Below are positions 7,058-24,335 of a DNA stretch of 36,478 nt, piece after piece. This stretch comes from Clostridiaceae bacterium (lineage in GTDB: Bacteria > Bacillota > Clostridia > Saccharofermentanales > DTU023). The DNA is taken from the NCBI GenBank assembly GCA_012519085.1, contig JAAYQX010000004.1:1-36478 (forward strand), written 5' to 3'. Each line of letters opens with the position of its first letter. Position 1 is the first letter of the stretch. Below the pieces are notes generated by a model. The model was not told where the DNA came from. It ran no database searches and was given only the letters and a program-made list of their open reading frames with translations. The position numbers and the translations under genes are program-made.

Positions 7058-8278
7058 TTAAGCCTGTTTACCGGAATTTCTTCTCATTATAGTTTCGTAT
7101 GCCGCTAGTGTATAGGGGTGAGCCGGTAGACCCTGTCGTCGCAAAGCACAAAAGACCTCGGACATACAAAGCAACATTGCGCCATCCAGATCATGTTCAG
7201 CTCTCTCCCTGATGGGAGGCAATGACTTGAATTCTCTACCGTATTCAATCTTGTCCGCCAGATAGATGATCTTTCCCAGATCACTTAATTGGGGATGAGC
7301 AGTTGTATGCCAACGGATGGCAGAACAAATGTCCTGATCTGAAATGCCTAATTCAGAGCTGACAAAGGTAGCGCTGGCAGGGGCATGTACAATCTTATCA
7401 TGCAGTTCCTCAAAGCCGTCCCGGCTCAAATCATATTGTTCGGACAGTGGCAGATTTTTCGCTATATCATGGAGCAATCCTGCAACCGCAGCCTGTCTGG
7501 GATCGACATTATGCTTAAGTGCCAGATGAACTGCATATTGCATCACATTCAAAACATGAACCCGTCGTTCCTGATCTAAGAGCGGCCATTGCAGCTGCTC
7601 CAGTCTTTGCAGATATGACCAGTCCTGCTCGTTGAATACGGACATTTCATCAGCAAAAGAAAATACTTGCTGCTCCGACAAAAAATCACTCACGGCTGCC
7701 GGCAGCAGGTGATCCGCACTTTCCCCGGCAATTAGCCTGGCCCTGATCTCTGTACTGGAAATAGTTACAGGCTCCCACTCCAAGAAGTCAATTCTGACCT
7801 GATATTTTTGTCGCAGGCAGTCCGCTGCAGCCCGGATTCTTTCGTCCTGGCCGTTTCCCCTCACTGCCACCAACAAGTCAACCTCTTTTAGCAGCTGATT
7901 AGACTTATACCAATGTCCAATCGCTAACAGCGAGTCCGATCCAATAAGCAAATCAATCCTCGCCTCAACTCCGGATTCTTCAAAATACTTATTTTTTAAA
8001 TACTGTACAGTCCTAATTGTGTAGCTGGCACCGGTTTCAACTATTTCGGCATCAGAAACTGAGGCTCTTTCCTCAGAGGAACTTAATGCTAACCTCACTG
8101 TCTCAAAGCGATAGCCCGCAAAAGAAATGCGCCGTTCCTTGTGTGGCGATGGTCCTGTCGGCATAACAATAATCTCATCATATTTACCCAGAGCCGACAC
8201 TTTATTAACCAGTCTGAGATGAGCTAGATGAAAGGGATCAAAAGTACCGCCAAATAGTGCAATCCGGACCATCTTCAC
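7058..8278 (-). CDS. nadD: Fused nicotinate-mononucleotide adenylyltransferase (NadD) and YqeK HD-domain hydrolase
   Basis: Two enzymes in one 406-residue chain. Residues 1-205 are NadD, which adenylates nicotinate mononucleotide in NAD synthesis: GGTFDPFHLAH at 10-20 and ISSTEIR at 173-179 bind ATP. Residues 225-406 are a YqeK-type HD domain with H241, H270-D271, H298, H324 and D342 as likely metal ligands; YqeK proteins split diadenosine tetraphosphate symmetrically. In most Bacillota these are separate neighbouring genes. The first codon is GTG, and GTGA overlaps the purD stop by four bases, suggesting translational coupling; an ATG two codons on is possible. The next gene is rsfS. No indel is needed to join the halves, so the fusion appears real in this sequence. 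Confidence 0.93.
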   Translation of the reverse strand: MKMVRIALFGGTFDPFHLAHLRLVNKVSALGKYDEIIVMPTGPSPHKERRISFAGYRFETVRLALSSSEERASVSDAEIVETGASYTIRTVQYLKNKYFEESGVEARIDLLIGSDSLLAIGHWYKSNQLLKEVDLLVAVRGNGQDERIRAAADCLRQKYQVRIDFLEWEPVTISSTEIRARLIAGESADHLLPAAVSDFLSEQQVFSFADEMSVFNEQDWSYLQRLEQLQWPLLDQERRVHVLNVMQYAVHLALKHNVDPRQAAVAGLLHDIAKNLPLSEQYDLSRDGFEELHDKIVHAPASATFVSSELGISDQDICSAIRWHTTAHPQLSDLGKIIYLADKIEYGREFKSLPPIRERAEHDLDGAMLLCMSEVFCALRRQGLPAHPYTLAAYETIMRRNSGKQA

Positions 8279-12270: not shown

Positions 12271-13383
12271 TCATTTTTGTATCTTGTCGCCGGCTAAATA
12301 GGCATAGATAAAATCATCAATGTCGCCGTTCATAACCGCTTCAATATCTGACTTCTCACAACCGGTCCGGTGATCCTTAACCATTGTATATGGACAAAAA
12401 ACATAGGATCTGATCTGACTGCCCCAGCCGATCTCCAGCATATCGCCCTTCAGATCTTCAATCCTGTCCATATGCCGCTGCCTGGCCAGGGTATATAGCT
12501 TAGCTTTCAACATGCGCAAAGCGGTCTCACGGTTTTGAATCTGTGATCGTTCATTTTGACAGGATACCACTATACCGGTTGGCAAATGCGTCATTCTGAC
12601 AGCAGAAGACGTCTTATTTACATGTTGACCGCCAGCCCCGGAGGCGCGGAAGACATCAATCTTGAGATCATCATCTTTGATCTCAATTACAATTGAATCA
12701 TCGAGCTCAGGCAAAACTTCCGTGGAAGCAAATGATGTATGGCGTCTGCCGGAAGAATCAAAAGGAGAAATTCTTACCAGCCGATGAACGCCGTGCTCAG
12801 AACGGAGATAACCATAGGCATTTTCACCGCTCAGCTTAAAAGTAATACTCTTAATTCCGGCCTCGTCACCATCCAGCCAGTCCAGAACCTGTACCTCATA
12901 GTCATTGCTCTCCGCCCAGCGCGAATACATGCGGTAGAGCATCTCACACCAGTCCTGGGCTTCTGTTCCGCCGGCTCCGGCATGGAGGGTGACAATTGCA
13001 TTGGCAGAATCGTGTTCTTCGGTGAGCAATGTTCTCAAACGCATATGTTCGAAGTCACGGCTCCATCTCTTTAACGCAGCAGCTATTTCGGGGATTACCT
13101 CACTATCCCCTTCCTCCGCTCCCAGTTCACACAGCACCGCAAGATCATCCAGGGCATTAAGCAACCTATGATACTCGGCAGATTTACTGGTAATCACACT
13201 GATGCGTTTCTGTGTAATGCGGGCCTGATCAGGATCAGACCAAAAATCAGGGTCAGATGTCAGAAGGGTTAGTTCTTTCAATTCCGCCTGCTCACTATCT
13301 AAATTCAAAGCGCGTTCTAAGTCCAGCAGCTCCTGTCTCCGTTGCTCTATATCAATTTTAAATTGTTCAAATTCCAGTATCAC
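12271..13383 (-). CDS. prfB: Peptide chain release factor 2
   Basis: Recognises UGA and UAA stops and triggers peptide release. It has a full RF2 plan: helical domain 1, stop-codon tripeptide region with the SPF motif (VRISPFDSSGRRHTSFAS), the peptidyl-transferase loop GGQ in RASGAGGQHVNKT, and C-terminal GWGSQIRSYVF. Length (370) is normal. Most prfB genes carry an in-frame UGA near codon 25 bypassed by +1 frameshifting; this one reads straight through. The start is a GTG whose bases GTGA overlap the UGA stop of a nine-codon upstream frame (see separate entry). AAGGAG lies 11 bases upstream. Confidence 0.96.
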   Translation of the reverse strand: MILEFEQFKIDIEQRRQELLDLERALNLDSEQAELKELTLLTSDPDFWSDPDQARITQKRISVITSKSAEYHRLLNALDDLAVLCELGAEEGDSEVIPEIAAALKRWSRDFEHMRLRTLLTEEHDSANAIVTLHAGAGGTEAQDWCEMLYRMYSRWAESNDYEVQVLDWLDGDEAGIKSITFKLSGENAYGYLRSEHGVHRLVRISPFDSSGRRHTSFASTEVLPELDDSIVIEIKDDDLKIDVFRASGAGGQHVNKTSSAVRMTHLPTGIVVSCQNERSQIQNRETALRMLKAKLYTLARQRHMDRIEDLKGDMLEIGWGSQIRSYVFCPYTMVKDHRTGCEKSDIEAVMNGDIDDFIYAYLAGDKIQK

Positions 13384-13432: not shown

Positions 13433-14176
13433 TCAGAGATCATCCCATTTGTCATCCGTCGACCTAATACTCAATTGAGAGAGATAGATAATGCCGTTGA
13501 GGCGTCCGGAAGCAAGCATCCTAAAAGCGAAAAAGAAACCCATCAGCAAACTTCCCGCCCAGGCTGAACTGGCCAGAATTCCTACTAAAAATTGTGCCAT
13601 AAAGCGCAGAAGAAATGTAACAGCAATAACGCTAGTAAATATCTGCAGCTTATATCCTTTGGTCAAGTGCCAACTTTGTTCCATAGCTTTAGATAATGAC
13701 TGTCGCTCCAAAACCAATTTAAGCGGCACGAAATAGAAGGCAGACATAAAGAAATAATAGGGAATCTCCAGCAAAAGGATTGACAAGAGATGAATCCCGC
13801 CGCAGATGCAGGAAAAGATTATCAAGGGAAATATTTTGCGCAGAACCTGCGGCAGGGCAGATTTTTGCTCTTTACGGATTACATTACCGACCATAGTTGC
13901 CGCATAACTTACAGCTAGTATAAAGCCCATAAGCAGAACCAACGGATAAAGTGACATATAGACATAAAATATAGGATCAATTTCCGGCAACGCCAAGCTG
14001 GGATTGACCAGCCACTCCGTAATTTGCAGCAAAATCCTGGTCTGCAAATCTTTGCCGGACAAACCCATCATCAATGCGGAATATGCCAGGAAGAGTACAA
14101 AAAACCAAGACTGAACATGACGTTCAGGCTCCAGCTCATAAAATTTATAGGCGTTAAATACACTAATCCTTCGCAT
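13433..14176 (-). CDS. Predicted multi-pass membrane protein of unknown function
   Basis: I do not recognise a specific family. The 247-residue product has about five to six hydrophobic segments (near residues 25-40, 75-100, 115-160, 180-205 and 208-225 of the shorter form). A conserved-looking internal piece, LSKAMEQSWHLTKGYK, before a membrane helix resembles the layout of DUF975 or glycerophosphodiesterase-type membrane domains; this is a resemblance only. ATG 14176 is preferred over TTG 14191 because a weak GAGAG precedes it and nothing precedes the TTG. It sits between the ACT regulator and prfB with gaps of about 50 bases each side, so it probably belongs to the same transcription unit. 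Confidence 0.75.
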   Translation of the reverse strand: MRRISVFNAYKFYELEPERHVQSWFFVLFLAYSALMMGLSGKDLQTRILLQITEWLVNPSLALPEIDPIFYVYMSLYPLVLLMGFILAVSYAATMVGNVIRKEQKSALPQVLRKIFPLIIFSCICGGIHLLSILLLEIPYYFFMSAFYFVPLKLVLERQSLSKAMEQSWHLTKGYKLQIFTSVIAVTFLLRFMAQFLVGILASSAWAGSLLMGFFFAFRMLASGRLNGIIYLSQLSIRSTDDKWDDL

Positions 14177-14231
14177 TTTATCTCTCGCCAAAATGATAAA
14201 CTATTTCAGCGCGCTCTGCCATTATCTGTTG

Positions 14232-14669
14232 TTATTTATCCATAATTGTAATTGTTCGTATCCCATGTACTCGACGCAATCTGGTTAGCAGCTCAGCCTT
14301 CGTATCCTTCATTAAGGCATCATCCAATGTGACCAGGACTGTGGACAAACCTTTAATTGCCATATTCTGATGCAGATTGACTATGCGGGCACCGCTATTT
14401 GCAATCGCCTCTATGGTAGCGGATAGAATTCCTGCAAAATTTTCCATCTGAAGCAATAAGGAAAACATCCTGCCACGTTTGGTCTCGGCAAAAGGTCTGA
14501 CAGCATCGCGATATTTATAATAGGCACTACGGCTGATTTTGACTTGCTGCACCGCACTGTTAACGGAATATACTTCGCCCGAATCAAGCAGTTTTTTTAC
14601 TTCAATAACCTTGCGGAACACATCCGGCAGAACATCAGCTCTGACAATAAGATACTCGCCCTTTTTCAT
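14232..14669 (-). CDS. UPF0735/PheB-type ACT domain protein
   Basis: Probable small regulatory protein that senses an amino acid. The N-terminal 60 residues have a helix-turn-helix-like segment (VNSAVQQVKISRSAYYKYRD) and the C-terminal half is an ACT domain (GILSATIEAIANSGARIVNL, then STVLVTLD). This arrangement and 145-residue length match the UPF0735 family, sometimes called PheB because it can lie beside pheA; no phenylalanine gene is nearby here. It overlaps rdgB by four bases (ATGA), implying coupled translation. Ligand and target are unknown. Confidence 0.88.
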   Translation of the reverse strand: MKKGEYLIVRADVLPDVFRKVIEVKKLLDSGEVYSVNSAVQQVKISRSAYYKYRDAVRPFAETKRGRMFSLLLQMENFAGILSATIEAIANSGARIVNLHQNMAIKGLSTVLVTLDDALMKDTKAELLTRLRRVHGIRTITIMDK

Positions 14670-15271
14670 TTATTGTCCATCTCCTCTTCAAAGTCTTGCA
14701 AAAAATTTCTAAATTTTGCAATGGCAATCCCTCTATGACTAATTTTATTTTTATCTTCAGGCAACATTTCTGCTGTCGTTAAACCGATATCAGGAATATA
14801 AAAGACAGGATCGTATCCAAAGCCGTTCGTGCCGCGTTTTTGATCTAAAATGACGCCTTCAACCTGACCCGAGAAATAATAAGCTTCATCGTTATAAATA
14901 AAACACAGGGCACAGTGAAAGCTGGCAGTCCACTGCTGTTTAGGATATGGCTTTAACAAAGACCACAAAGTCTCAATTTTGTCAGCATAACTCGTTTTGA
15001 CGCCGGCAAATCTTGCAGTATACAGACCGGGCGCACCATCCAGCAAATCTACTGATAAACCTGTATCGTCAGCCAGTACCGGGCAGCGGCAAAAATCAAA
15101 AACCGCTTTTGCCTTTAAATAGGCATTTTCACGATAGCTGACCCCTTCCTCAGCAATCTCCTTGGTAAATCCAGCTTCAGCCATGCTCATTAACTCACAA
15201 CCGGTAGGTTCCAGCAATGATCTCAGCTCAGCCAGTTTATCTGAATTATTAGTAGCTATAATTATTTTCAT
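14666..15271 (-). CDS. rdgB: XTP/dITP diphosphatase (RdgB/HAM1 family)
   Basis: Removes non-canonical purine nucleoside triphosphates (XTP, dITP) before they enter DNA or RNA. Hallmarks: N-terminal ATNNSDKLAEL, YRENAYLKAKA, VLADDTGLSVDLLDGAPG, FGYDPVF and KNKISHRG. Length of about 200 is normal. ATG 15271 is preferred over the GTG three bases upstream because GGGAG sits six bases away. It lies 14 bases after the M3-like gene and overlaps the next gene. Confidence 0.96.
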   Translation of the reverse strand: MKIIIATNNSDKLAELRSLLEPTGCELMSMAEAGFTKEIAEEGVSYRENAYLKAKAVFDFCRCPVLADDTGLSVDLLDGAPGLYTARFAGVKTSYADKIETLWSLLKPYPKQQWTASFHCALCFIYNDEAYYFSGQVEGVILDQKRGTNGFGYDPVFYIPDIGLTTAEMLPEDKNKISHRGIAIAKFRNFLQDFEEEMDNK

Positions 15272-15285
15272 CACAAACTCCCGGA

Positions 15286-16965
15286 TTATAATTGCAGTCG
15301 ATCACAGAGATTGAAAGCGGCCAGTTTGAGGTCCAAGTCAGTCAATGGCTGTGAAAAACCGGCCTGACTTAACTGATCAGATCTTGCCGTATCACCCGCC
15401 AGCAAATTTGAGAGGGCAGTGCCGAGTCTGTGCGCTCCCTGCCGGGAGAAAGGCTTGAATGACCAGATCCTGACATAGGCACGAGCTTTCGACAAATGTT
15501 GTAAGGGATAGAGGAACAATGCCGGCTGTAAAAGAAAGCCATAGCCATCCCAAATATTATCACTATCATTCCACGGCGGACCGCTAATACCGGATCCGAG
15601 CTCAAACCTGCTCCAAATTTCGGGCAGATCTCCTTCCTCTGGGTTTGCCAAAGAGAAAACTTCTTGCTCAAATAAGGTTAAGGCAGCTGCTGTCATCAGC
15701 TCCTGAACTACCTCAATCAATCGTATATCATAAGCATTCTCGGCTTGATCGCCCAAGATGGCTGTACAAAAGGCTGAACTTAAAGTTTCAATTGCAACTC
15801 CGCATACTTCGCGTATTTCACGGTCGGGATGCCAAGAAAAAAGATTGACTCGATTTCGGAACGCGGCAGTATCAGCACATAAACAGCCGGCCTCATAAAA
15901 CAATTGATAGGTATGATAACCTTCCGGAGAAAGATAAAAGGCCATAAATGGCAAATCTGAAACAGGAAAATGGAAACTGGGGCGGTTAATTCTCTCATAG
16001 TCTTCCGCTCGTGCTATTTCCTCTGTCATAGTAAGTGCTTCCAGCAGAAAATCAGCCTCGTCATCAAACAAATCATTCAGGCAAAGCTTAATTGTCTCCA
16101 GATTATTATTCTCTTTATCAGGAGCCGGCAGACCCTCAGGAGTTGGAAACCAGCGGTCCCATATAGCCAGGCTATCCATACCCAAACGCAATGCTTGCTG
16201 CCTTCTCAATTCATACTGAATGGGTAGAAAATGACGCCTCAGAGTATGAGCAAAATTGCTCTCCAGAGACCCGCTGACGGTAGTCACAAGCTGACGTTCC
16301 TTATCCAAATAATCAGTTATGCGCGCATAACCGAGCTTATGGCTGATCTGCCGCTGCAGAACAAGGATACGCAAATAAAGCTGTAGCAATTCCTCTTTCC
16401 TAAGTTGAAAAGCTTGGACAAACTTAAGAAAGGAAGCTTTGCGCCGTTCACCATCGAGCTGTGTCAACTGCCGTTTCAACAAATAACCCGGTTGAAAAAA
16501 ACCGCCGGGCAGCAAGCCCAGTTCTTCAATAAGCCTGACATAGTTTAAGCGGCATTGCATCAGTTCCTGCTGTTCTGAACTGACGGAGCTGACAGAGGTC
16601 GCCAAGAGGCTTTTTGTTATTCTAAATACATTATCTCCCGCCAACTCAGCTATGCTTTGACTGGAACGATGATCTACCAGAACGGATAATGTCTCCTGCA
16701 GACTGATCTTAAATAGGGGAAACCAGAGCAAAAAGCTCTCATATTGTCTTTGCCAATATTCGTCCTCCGGTTGCTGTGCGTAGTAAATTTGGCAGATCAG
16801 ATATTTTTCTGATAACTCCCGCAACAACTGGTCGAGATCAGTTAAACTGCTGACAATGCTCTCCGCTGACAGAGACATGCGCATGCGTAAACGTATTTTG
16901 CGCAACTGATCATGAATCTCAGCTGTATCAGGAGGAATATATTTCAATTTAGAAAAATCTGTCAT
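15286..16965 (-). CDS. Degenerate M3-family (oligoendopeptidase F-like) protein, predicted non-catalytic
   Basis: The 559-residue chain follows the M3 peptidase plan: a long helical N-terminal half, HKLGYARITDYL near residue 210, LGMDSLAIWDRW at 261-272, and then the region where the zinc site should be. Oligoendopeptidases have HEXXH there; this protein reads Y357-E-A-G-C361, so both metal-binding histidines are gone while the glutamate is kept. E386 (in EIREVCGV) sits 29 residues after Y357, exactly where the third zinc ligand lies in thimet oligopeptidase. The later substrate-binding His/Tyr region reads GYGFLLQPALFLYPLQHL and also looks altered. The frame is intact over full length, arguing for a retained non-peptidase role. 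It starts as TAATG on the argS stop, so translation is coupled to argS. The family assignment is by eye and should be tested by profile search. Confidence 0.72.
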   Translation of the reverse strand: MTDFSKLKYIPPDTAEIHDQLRKIRLRMRMSLSAESIVSSLTDLDQLLRELSEKYLICQIYYAQQPEDEYWQRQYESFLLWFPLFKISLQETLSVLVDHRSSQSIAELAGDNVFRITKSLLATSVSSVSSEQQELMQCRLNYVRLIEELGLLPGGFFQPGYLLKRQLTQLDGERRKASFLKFVQAFQLRKEELLQLYLRILVLQRQISHKLGYARITDYLDKERQLVTTVSGSLESNFAHTLRRHFLPIQYELRRQQALRLGMDSLAIWDRWFPTPEGLPAPDKENNNLETIKLCLNDLFDDEADFLLEALTMTEEIARAEDYERINRPSFHFPVSDLPFMAFYLSPEGYHTYQLFYEAGCLCADTAAFRNRVNLFSWHPDREIREVCGVAIETLSSAFCTAILGDQAENAYDIRLIEVVQELMTAAALTLFEQEVFSLANPEEGDLPEIWSRFELGSGISGPPWNDSDNIWDGYGFLLQPALFLYPLQHLSKARAYVRIWSFKPFSRQGAHRLGTALSNLLAGDTARSDQLSQAGFSQPLTDLDLKLAAFNLCDRLQL

Positions 16966-18692
16966 TACATTCTTTCTAAGGCATCGATTCCGGCAATTTT
17001 TAGACCGGTATATAGATAAAGTCTGGTAATTTCAGTCAGAATCAAGCGAGCCTTAACCAGCTCTTCTGTTTCAGCATGCAATATGGAATGGCTGTGATAA
17101 AAGCGGTTGAATGCTCTTGCCAGCTGACTGATATTGCGTAACATAATTGAGGGTTCATGAGTCGCTAATGCCTCCAGAACAGTATCCTCAAAATCAGCTG
17201 TCAGCTTCAAAATTGCCTGTTCCTCAGGACCGGTCAGATACTGTCCGGCTTGAACCGGATCAATCTGCCCCGGTGGCCAAATCCCTTTGTCCTCTGCCAA
17301 GCGGATGATACTGGAACATCTGGCATAACAGTACTGCAGATAGGGAGCGGAATCACCCTCAAAGTCAAGCATATCATCCCAGGAAAAGATGATATCCCTT
17401 TCCCTGCCATTGCGCAGAAAAGTATATCTTACGGCACCAACACCAACGCTTTCCGCGATTTGATCTACTTCTTCCCCACTCATATCAGGATTATTGGTCA
17501 GAATAATTTTCCGGGTTTTATTTACACTCTCCGCCAGAAGATCATCTAACAAAATAACATTGCCATAGCGCGTTGAAAAAATCGCGTCAGCACCCCGAAC
17601 AGTACCGAAAGGCACATGGATACACTGATCGGCCTTAGCAAAATCAGCTTTTTTCAACACGGCAAAAACCTGTTCAAAATGATTCTTTTGGGGTAGTCCT
17701 ACCACATAGATATTGCGGTAAAAATCCCATTCGCGATCGCGATAATAAACTGCCGCAATGTCTCTCGACGCATAGATAGTTGCACCATCAGACTTAAGAA
17801 TCAGACAGGGATTGAGATTATACTCGTCCAGATTTACAACCAGAGCACCATCACTCTCAACTAAAAGTCCTTTCCCCTGCAACAGCTCAACTACCTCCGG
17901 TATCTGATCGGAATAAAAACTCTCGCCGTTCATATTGTCAAAGCTGATATTCAACCTGCGATAGATCTTGTCGAAGGCTTCCAAACTCAATTTTCTGAAC
18001 AATTCCCACAGCGCATATTCCTCCGGCGCCCGATCTTCAAGTAGTTTAAAATATGCTCGCCCCTCATCTTCCAACTCAGGATGCTCATCCAGTTCCTGAT
18101 AAAATTTGACGTAGACTCGATTTAGTTCCGTAATCGGATCCGCTGCCAGTGCGGATTCATTACCCCAGCGTTTCCAGGCGGAAATCAGCTTGCCGAATTG
18201 TGTTCCGTAGTCGCCCAAGTGATTGAGCCTGATCACCTCATAACCTCGATGTTGATAGAGATTAGCAATCGTCTCGCCAAGCAATGTGGAGAAGGCGTGA
18301 CCAACATGAAAAGGCTTGGCGATATTCGGTGAGGAATATTCCACCAGAACTGTTTTTTCAGCGCCTTCATCACTTGATCCCGGACAATAATCTGCTGCCA
18401 TACATTGTTGCAGTACTGCAGCGGCATATTGAGCGGGATCAAAGAAAAAGTTCAGATAGCCGCCTACGACATCTACTCGCTCCAGCCAGGGCAGTCTGCC
18501 GGCTATTTTCTCTTTCAGATCAGCGGCAATCTGAGCCGGTGCCTTGCGCAAAACTTTGGCCAGACGGAAGCAAGGCAAGGCCAGATCACCCAATTCCGGC
18601 TGCGGCGGCACTTCCATCAATGAAGCTAAAAGCGATTGTTCCAGGCCGGATTCCGCGGCCAATAACTGTATTATTTCAGTCTTAAATTGCAT
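16965..18692 (-). CDS. argS: Arginyl-tRNA synthetase
   Basis: Class I aminoacyl-tRNA synthetase charging tRNA-Arg. Seen: N-terminal add-1 domain, EYSSPNIAKPFHVGHAFST with the HIGH-like HVGH at residues 129-132, LNHLGDYGTQFGKLI, the DGATIYASRD and YVVGLPQKNHF core motifs, and C-terminal anticodon domain with Y-rich LARAFNRFYHSHSIL. As in many ArgRS there is no clear KMSKS; the corresponding loop is near GTVRGADAIFSTRYGN. Length (575) is normal. No T-box leader is seen before it; the preceding gene ends 33 bases upstream. The gene overlaps the M3-like gene by one base. Confidence 0.97.
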   Translation of the reverse strand: MQFKTEIIQLLAAESGLEQSLLASLMEVPPQPELGDLALPCFRLAKVLRKAPAQIAADLKEKIAGRLPWLERVDVVGGYLNFFFDPAQYAAAVLQQCMAADYCPGSSDEGAEKTVLVEYSSPNIAKPFHVGHAFSTLLGETIANLYQHRGYEVIRLNHLGDYGTQFGKLISAWKRWGNESALAADPITELNRVYVKFYQELDEHPELEDEGRAYFKLLEDRAPEEYALWELFRKLSLEAFDKIYRRLNISFDNMNGESFYSDQIPEVVELLQGKGLLVESDGALVVNLDEYNLNPCLILKSDGATIYASRDIAAVYYRDREWDFYRNIYVVGLPQKNHFEQVFAVLKKADFAKADQCIHVPFGTVRGADAIFSTRYGNVILLDDLLAESVNKTRKIILTNNPDMSGEEVDQIAESVGVGAVRYTFLRNGRERDIIFSWDDMLDFEGDSAPYLQYCYARCSSIIRLAEDKGIWPPGQIDPVQAGQYLTGPEEQAILKLTADFEDTVLEALATHEPSIMLRNISQLARAFNRFYHSHSILHAETEELVKARLILTEITRLYLYTGLKIAGIDALERM

Positions 18693-18725: not shown

Positions 18726-19643
18726 CTAGGGCCATAATTTTGTCGGATACAAGCCGCCGGCTGTCAATTCTGCCAGAGCATGCATTACCTTAGGCCTATC
18801 TTCACGATATGTAATGCCATACCAGCGGTCAGCAACCGGCATCGCCTTAACTTTGATAAGTCCTGCTTTGATGCAGTTGTCAATAACCTCCGGCAGCAGA
18901 AATTCTGCTTTCATGGGATCAGAGGTGACATCAGAGGCCAAGAAGAGCGGAAAGCGCTCCTCAAGCTGCCGCAGAAAATCTTGCGGCAGTCCCCAGAAAT
19001 TCATTGATACCGGGGTGGCAGCAGCCAGCTCCTGCCAATCCCGTTCATCATCAAGGCGGTATTTTCCGCCATCGGCAGTCTGGTAAATCTGCTTAGTTTC
19101 GATAATTTCCTGCAGATAACTATCATCTGAAAGCGCGCATACACCCCGTGAAACATGACCATGTTCACTCAAGGTATTCGCCAGCTGCCAAGTGCAAAGA
19201 GCATAAGTATCTTCCGGTGACCGGGCAGCACTGAGATGGTCATACATGAGACCAAATGCTTGCGGGCCATAATAATCATCAGCATTAATCACGACAAAAG
19301 GCGCGTCGATAAGATCTCCGGCAGCCAGGATAGCCTGACCCGTGCCCCAGGGTTTTTCCCTGCCCTCAGGTATATTAAAACTTTCCGGTATCGCCTCAAG
19401 CTCCTGAAAAGCATAATCGATCTGAATTTTTTTCCTCATTCCGGGATCGATGCAAGCCGAAAAATCTTGCTCAATGCTTTTTTTGATAATGAATATAACT
19501 CGTTCAAAACCGGCTCTAATCGCATCATAGACAGAATAATCGAGAATGATCTCGCCGCCGGGGCCGACTGGTTCAATTTGTTTCAAGCCGCCGTAGCGAG
19601 ATCCCATTCCTGCCGCCATTACAACCAAGATCGGTTTTACCAT
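18726..19643 (-). CDS. Nucleotidyltransferase of the sugar-phosphate NTP-transferase family
   Basis: Probably transfers a nucleotidyl group to a phosphorylated sugar or alcohol. The Rossmann-like GT-A signature is clear: VVMAAGMGSRYGGLKQIEPV near the N terminus, GTGQAILAA, and the metal-binding VINADDYYG. A second half (SMNFWGLPQDFL, DRWYGITYRED) is typical of a broad family annotated only as NTP_transferase. The ATG at 19643 is chosen because GGAGG lies five bases upstream; a TTG further on overlaps the ribosome site. The choline-kinase-like partner often found beside such genes is absent, so substrate is unknown. It lies 33 bases before argS. Confidence 0.85.
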   Translation of the reverse strand: MVKPILVVMAAGMGSRYGGLKQIEPVGPGGEIILDYSVYDAIRAGFERVIFIIKKSIEQDFSACIDPGMRKKIQIDYAFQELEAIPESFNIPEGREKPWGTGQAILAAGDLIDAPFVVINADDYYGPQAFGLMYDHLSAARSPEDTYALCTWQLANTLSEHGHVSRGVCALSDDSYLQEIIETKQIYQTADGGKYRLDDERDWQELAAATPVSMNFWGLPQDFLRQLEERFPLFLASDVTSDPMKAEFLLPEVIDNCIKAGLIKVKAMPVADRWYGITYREDRPKVMHALAELTAGGLYPTKLWP

Positions 19644-19687
19644 TGTCTCCTCCAAGTAAAAAATTATATTTAAACTTAATTATCGGG

Positions 19688-23210: not shown

Positions 23211-24335
23211 TTGCATATTATCAAAGGTAAATACAATGAAGCTAAGGTCTTCACCAGTGAACTGGAAGAAACTGCACGGGCACAAATCCAGAATCTGGTC
23301 AATCAACCGTTTGTAGCGGGAAGTAAGATACGGATCATGCCGGATGTACACGCCGGAGCGGGCAGCACGATCGGCACCACAATGACTATTACAGATAAAG
23401 TAGTACCCAATCTGGTCGGTGTCGATATCGGTTGCGGTATGCTGACAACCGAGCTGGTAGATCTCACAGCAGACGACCTCGATCTGCCACGGCTTGACCG
23501 CCTGATCCGCGCTTGCATCCCATCCGGTTACGAGATTCGTCGCCGGCCGCACGAATTCCTGGAACGTACGCGACTCGATGATTTGCGCTGCCGTGATAGC
23601 GGGCGCAATGACAACAGACTGAAAATGGATCGTGCCCGACGTTCACTCGGCACCTTGGGCGGCGGCAATCATTTCATCGAAGTCAACAGAGACCAAAACG
23701 GCGCACTATACCTAGTTATCCACTCCGGTTCACGACATCTGGGACTACAGGTAGCACTACACTACCAAAGGATGGCAGCCAGACTGCAACCCAAAATAGA
23801 ACGAGATCTGGCCTATCTCGAGGGTAAGCTGCTCCAAGACTATCTGAACGATATGAAAATAATGCAAGATTATGCTGTCCAGAACCGAAAAGCAATGGCC
23901 GAGACTATTATCACAGGAATGGACTGGCAGACCGGCGAACGATTCACAACCATCCACAATTATATTGACTTAGATACGATGATTTTACGCAAAGGCGCCA
24001 TCTCAGCACGCGCCGGAGAAAAGGTTCTGATCCCGCTCAATATGCGCGATGGCTCTCTACTCTGCGTCGGAAAAGGAAATCCGGACTGGAACTTCTCCGC
24101 CCCGCATGGTGCCGGCCGCATCATGTCACGCAATGAAGCCAAGCGAGTCCTGACACTACAAGATTTCCGCCATAGTATGGAGGGAGTATTCTCCACTTCA
24201 ATCCGACGGGACACCCTCGACGAAGCGCCGATGGCCTACAAATCTCTAGAGAGTCTGCTGGAATACCTCGATCAGACGGTGGAGATCTTGCACCATCTGA
24301 CCCCGGTCTACAATTTCAAAGCTAGCGGAGATTGA
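23211..24335 (+). CDS. rtcB: RtcB-family RNA 3'-phosphate ligase
   Basis: GTP- and Mn-dependent RNA ligase joining 2',3'-cyclic phosphate or 3'-phosphate ends to 5'-OH ends, used in RNA repair. The metal site is complete: D45 and H47 in MPDVHAGAGSTIG, D72 and C75 in VDIGCGM, the GGGNHFIE and HSGSRHLG histidines, and the guanylated histidine in SAPHGAGRIMSR. At 374 residues it belongs to the shorter RtcB group. The start is TTG at 23211 with AAGGA 11 bases before; no ATG nearby is in frame. It stands alone on plus: no archease, RtcA or PrfH-like gene is next to it. Confidence 0.93.
   Translation: MHIIKGKYNEAKVFTSELEETARAQIQNLVNQPFVAGSKIRIMPDVHAGAGSTIGTTMTITDKVVPNLVGVDIGCGMLTTELVDLTADDLDLPRLDRLIRACIPSGYEIRRRPHEFLERTRLDDLRCRDSGRNDNRLKMDRARRSLGTLGGGNHFIEVNRDQNGALYLVIHSGSRHLGLQVALHYQRMAARLQPKIERDLAYLEGKLLQDYLNDMKIMQDYAVQNRKAMAETIITGMDWQTGERFTTIHNYIDLDTMILRKGAISARAGEKVLIPLNMRDGSLLCVGKGNPDWNFSAPHGAGRIMSRNEAKRVLTLQDFRHSMEGVFSTSIRRDTLDEAPMAYKSLESLLEYLDQTVEILHHLTPVYNFKASGD

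Follow-up and report, generated by a model that had tools for sequence, protein, structure and literature searches.

A probable M3 pseudo-peptidase encoded directly after argS in a clostridial order

Introduction

The closest described relatives of the protein reported here are Pz peptidase A and oligoendopeptidase F of the TIGR02289 type (3ahm, 2h1j and 3sks), which are equal to it in length and can be aligned with it from end to end. Our protein, however, has other residues in place of their HEXXH motif, EIH segment and C-terminal HIFxxPFYYIDY stretch, and its score falls far short of the cut-off for the family. Thimet oligopeptidase and PepF (PF01432) place the third-ligand glutamate 29 residues beyond the start of the zinc motif, a spacing that is retained in the genus considered here, but the protein itself is not matched by PF01432 (Peptidase_M3).

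The alpha subunit of the mitochondrial processing peptidase (M16) is an example of a pseudo-peptidase in another metallopeptidase family. The likeness is that of a full-length homologue kept without its catalytic residues; in contrast to the M16 subunit, our protein is of a different family and fold, is encoded next to argS in Clostridia and has no active partner subunit identified in its genome. Searches of the open-access full-text literature yielded no description of an M3 pseudo-peptidase and no link of such a protein to argS.

The gene and its neighbours

The window, by which we mean the whole stretch of DNA analysed, comprises 36,478 nucleotides of a clostridial genome. The gene of interest lies on the minus strand, which had not been stated when the sequence was first read, starts with ATG and runs without an internal stop codon through 559 residues, in agreement with the intact frame claimed when the sequence was first read. 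The translational coupling proposed at that time was also found, the stop codon of argS overlapping the ATG of the M3-like gene in TAATG. The gene and the block in which it is set are as follows.

18726-19655, minus strand: nucleotidyltransferase-like gene, upstream member of the block (weak NCBIfam matches and synteny)
16965-18692, minus strand: argS, arginyl-tRNA synthetase, directly upstream with a one-base overlap (TIGR00456, E = 1.4e-142)
15286-16965, minus strand: M3-derived probable pseudo-peptidase P0001, 559 residues (intact reading frame; TIGR02289, 3ahm and profile-profile matches)
14666-15274, minus strand: rdgB-type XTP/dITP diphosphatase, downstream (TIGR00042, E = 2.6e-51, and synteny)
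14232-14669, minus strand: ACT-domain protein, downstream (NF003361, E = 1.9e-43, and synteny)
13433-14191, minus strand: putative membrane protein of the conserved block (synteny; no NCBIfam match)
12271-13383, minus strand: prfB, release factor 2, at the end of the conserved block (TIGR00020, E = 1.9e-153, and synteny)

In close relatives the order is nucleotidyltransferase, argS, M3, (rsmF), rdgB, ACT, membrane protein and prfB, with the M3 gene directly after argS. The bracketed gene is a putative rsmF, read from its sequence rather than from a scan.

Elsewhere in the window, a single open reading frame at 7058-8278 (minus strand) encodes a fusion of NadD with a YqeK-type HD phosphatase (NCBIfam PRK07152, TIGR00482 and TIGR00488), and a homologue of RtcB-family RNA ligases at 23211-24335 (plus strand) scores under the curated cut-offs.

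Relationship to M3 peptidases

The sequence-only reading had assigned the protein to family M3 at full length, on the basis of the segments LGYARITDYL, LGMDSLAIWDRW and EVCGVAIETL, all of which are present in the translation. Searches with single profiles give a divided answer: TIGR02289 matches with E = 9.4e-12, at 44.3 bits against a curated cut-off of 442.35, while Pfam PF01432 finds no match. A phmmer search of the PDB with the protein retrieved 3ahm (E = 2.4e-14) and 2h1j (E = 4e-12).

Together with a profile-profile comparison, these matches put the relationship to M3 well beyond chance. We denote the taxonomic family of this genome as f1, the sister family as f2 and further families of the order as f3 and f4. 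An alignment of 16 HEXXH-less argS-linked homologues of f1 (A5) was compared by hhalign with one of eight intact M3 proteins (A3), giving a probability of 100 and E = 3.1e-56 with 564 of the 570 columns aligned. Because the match spans this length, the whole argS-linked protein is taken to be M3-derived, and the full-length assignment stands. Intact argS-linked copies from f2 match Pz peptidase A, 3ahm, one of them with E = 7.6e-135. An AlphaFold2 model of the 559-residue protein, calculated with a six-sequence alignment, had a pLDDT of 45 and a pTM of 0.30, and the assignment of the fold therefore rests on the sequence profiles.

The former active site

Three segments correspond to the catalytic apparatus of intact relatives.

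15883-15897, minus strand: former zinc motif, residues 357-361, YEAGC replacing HEXXH (alignment columns)
15802-15810, minus strand: former third-ligand segment Glu386-Val387-Cys388, E-I-H in intact relatives (alignment columns)
15496-15522, minus strand: former C-terminal catalytic segment, residues 482-490, ALFLYPLQH (column comparison)

Intact relatives carry HEGGH, HESGH, HETGH or HEAGH at the columns of the zinc motif. The absence of both histidines was correctly noted from the sequence, as was the position of Glu386, 29 residues beyond residue 357 where the third ligand is expected; within f1 this glutamate is kept only in the present genus. The loss extends beyond HEXXH to the catalytic residues of the C-terminal segment, His and Tyr-Tyr, a point not made in the sequence-only reading: where intact relatives have H-I-F-x-x-P-F-Y-Y, Ala482, Gln489 and His490 occupy those columns. 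All of the catalytic positions are thus replaced except for Glu358 and Glu386. We regard it as very probable that the protein is M3-derived and is not a zinc peptidase.

Distribution of intact and dead copies

In f1 the M3-derived gene next to argS lacks HEXXH in all 34 genomes with a readable motif, which represent seven genera. One copy, in G043, has no motif region at all. Besides the forms found in the present genus, the f1 motifs include YSIGK, FSTGK, NMTGK, YETGC, SETGS, YMSGA, LDTGY, YACGE and YATGI, and glycine is the one position common to all of them. Of the two features whose conservation in orthologues was to be checked, the argS linkage holds across f1, as does the absence of HEXXH, but YEAGC itself varies even within the genus, whose other records are clostridial metagenome-assembled genomes.

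This is not the situation in f2, where 102 of 102 argS-linked copies keep HEXXH as HEGGH or HESGH. Family f3 holds both states, with intact copies in genera g19 and g30 (five genomes) and dead copies in g9 and g17; in g11 the motif reads HTAGH or HNVGH, so that the glutamate alone has been lost from it. Relatives with an intact motif thus do occur at the argS locus, a finding that had been named as one that would refute the pseudo-peptidase proposal. They belong only to other families, which leaves the dead state in f1 unrefuted and shows that it is a derived loss. In f4 all eight of the M3-like genes linked to argS are dead (L229, L230, L231, L219, L244, L249, L251 and L252). These proteins are very divergent; their position after argS means that the pseudo-peptidase may be order-wide.

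The HNVGH and HTAGH copies (L036, 4074-5747, and L042, 3963-5636, respectively) retain both histidines and the third-ligand glutamate, with the catalytic glutamate gone, and are possible metal-binding intermediates.

The M3 gene is apparently missing after argS in two single genomes, G051 and G062. No M3 match was found for the genes next to argS in f3 genera g27-g29 (L232-L234, L237 and L243) or in G063; in g27-g29 the gene has been either replaced, lost or has diverged beyond detection. Neither viral contigs (one scan) nor plasmids yielded further relatives.

Linkage to argS was also considered as a general trait of Clostridia and was not supported: of 30 TIGR02289 loci taken from the class, none adjoins argS and all carry HEXXH.

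Constraint on the dead copies

Has the gene merely outlived its function? One explanation is that function went with catalysis and that a remnant is slowly disappearing, its frame held open by translational coupling or by chance. Among same-genus pairs the ratio of M3 to argS divergence is 2.44 for dead copies and 1.03 for active copies, from which we conclude that constraint is relaxed in the former. In the nearest species (L076 / L006, G002:C196) the copy is 86% identical and otherwise intact, with an in-frame TAG at about codon 121 that may represent recent decay or an assembly error. Together with the apparent absences in G051 and G062, this stop codon implies that not every lineage needs the gene; the lack of the motif region in G043 also fits decay.

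Against decay stands the persistence of the gene. Frames of about 560 residues are intact in at least 30 genomes, most of them only about 20% identical to our protein, and the dead gene is kept at full length in several lineages. Since dS was saturated and could not be computed for the first congener tried, differences by codon position were used in place of dN/dS. The ratio of second- to third-position differences against the nearest species is 0.15-0.21, compared with 0.12-0.20 for the neighbouring genes, and is thus inside the range of the neighbours or slightly above it.

The distribution of conserved residues has also shifted. In active copies conservation is greatest in the active-site half, residues 331-510, whereas in dead copies the maximum falls in the last 20 residues, followed by 481-540 and 241-270. 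The most conserved region of the dead clade is the following.

15295-15453, minus strand: C-terminal part, residues 505-557 (conservation analysis)

The conserved residues here are Pro505, Leu514, Leu522, Ala549, Phe551, Asp555 and Leu557. Several positions, Pro505, Leu514, Leu522, Glu433 and Phe551 among others, are invariant or almost invariant in dead copies and differ in active ones, so that some of the invariant residues are new. The differences by codon position, the frames that have stayed open and the residues invariant in this clade only show that the M3-like gene is under purifying selection. A decaying remnant is accordingly an improbable account, although it is the best of the alternatives.

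A second possibility is that the protein pairs with an active M3 paralogue and serves as the regulatory subunit of a hetero-oligomer, in the manner of the two-subunit mitochondrial processing peptidase of family M16. Some f1 genomes (in g2, g6 and g7, and one in g4) do encode, at another locus, a close paralogue with HEXXH. In g1, g3 and g5 the surveys turned up no such paralogue, and this is true of the present genome, whose two other M3 enzymes are distant and carry HELGH; M3 enzymes are, moreover, known as monomers or simple homo-oligomers and not as two-subunit assemblies. As a close paralogue was not found in this genome, we consider such a role very unlikely.

The least credible explanation of all is that the protein is still a peptidase and binds metal at another site, formed by Tyr357, Cys361 and Glu386, as the sequence-only reading had allowed, or with Glu358. 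Not all of these putative ligands are constant even inside the genus: Glu358 and Glu386 are, but the motif reads YEAGC, SEAGA, SEIGA or NEIGG (Y/Y/S/S/N at residue 357 and C/C/A/A/G at residue 361 in five species). In other genera the glutamates are often lost, and the C-terminal His/Tyr residues are missing as well. Nor do the columns of the former ligands rank with the best conserved of the dead clade, in which the glycine of the motif alone is invariant.

How often catalysis was lost

On the argS tree the active and dead states require at least three changes, with the position in the operon kept throughout. In the M3 tree, which contains long branches, the dead copies group weakly (support 35/45) and a single f3 clade is not rejected (AU p = 0.16); this tree by itself does not separate one loss from several. 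We lean towards several separate losses, which the argS tree favours, and do not claim these as shown.

A possible role

The retention of the gene across f1 after its catalytic residues were lost suggests that it has been turned to a purpose other than peptide cleavage. We therefore prefer the explanation that it encodes an M3 pseudo-peptidase with a selected non-catalytic role, to which we assign a probability of about 0.75. The loss of catalysis, the family-wide state and linkage, and the signs of selection uphold the pseudo-peptidase that had been proposed from the sequence; the scaffold or regulatory role proposed with it is one that we infer.

We reconstruct the history of the protein as follows. 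In the common ancestor of the clostridial order in question, an active M3 oligopeptidase of the Pz peptidase A / TIGR02289 type came to be encoded immediately downstream of argS. Zinc binding and catalysis were then lost in most lineages, including all of f1, with the dead protein retained at full length in the argS - rdgB - ACT - prfB block. It presumably keeps the helical M3 clamshell and may act by binding a peptide or protein partner without cutting it. For the contact surface the leading candidate is the conserved C-terminal end, and for the partner it would be a translation-related product of the operon, for example ArgRS.

Two observations suggest a protein partner, perhaps ArgRS: the coupling of the genes in the operon and the conservation of the C-terminal end. 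We put forward a role with an operon partner only tentatively, at clearly less than even odds. A broader proposal is more doubtful still: that throughout the order the argS-linked M3 protein serves specifically as a non-catalytic partner, either of ArgRS or of the translation functions of the argS operon, binding having arisen first in the active ancestor. Its appeal is that a binding role already present in the active ancestor would allow catalysis to be lost repeatedly in separate lineages.

For annotation, profile-based labels such as 'M3 peptidase' or 'hypothetical protein' are misleading for the dead copies linked to argS. At one conserved operon position these genomes range from active enzymes, by way of copies that lack only the glutamate, to copies with no active site left, and this natural series makes the locus well suited to studying how an enzyme becomes a non-enzyme. 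Were ArgRS the partner, the protein would be an unsuspected accessory translation factor in Clostridia.
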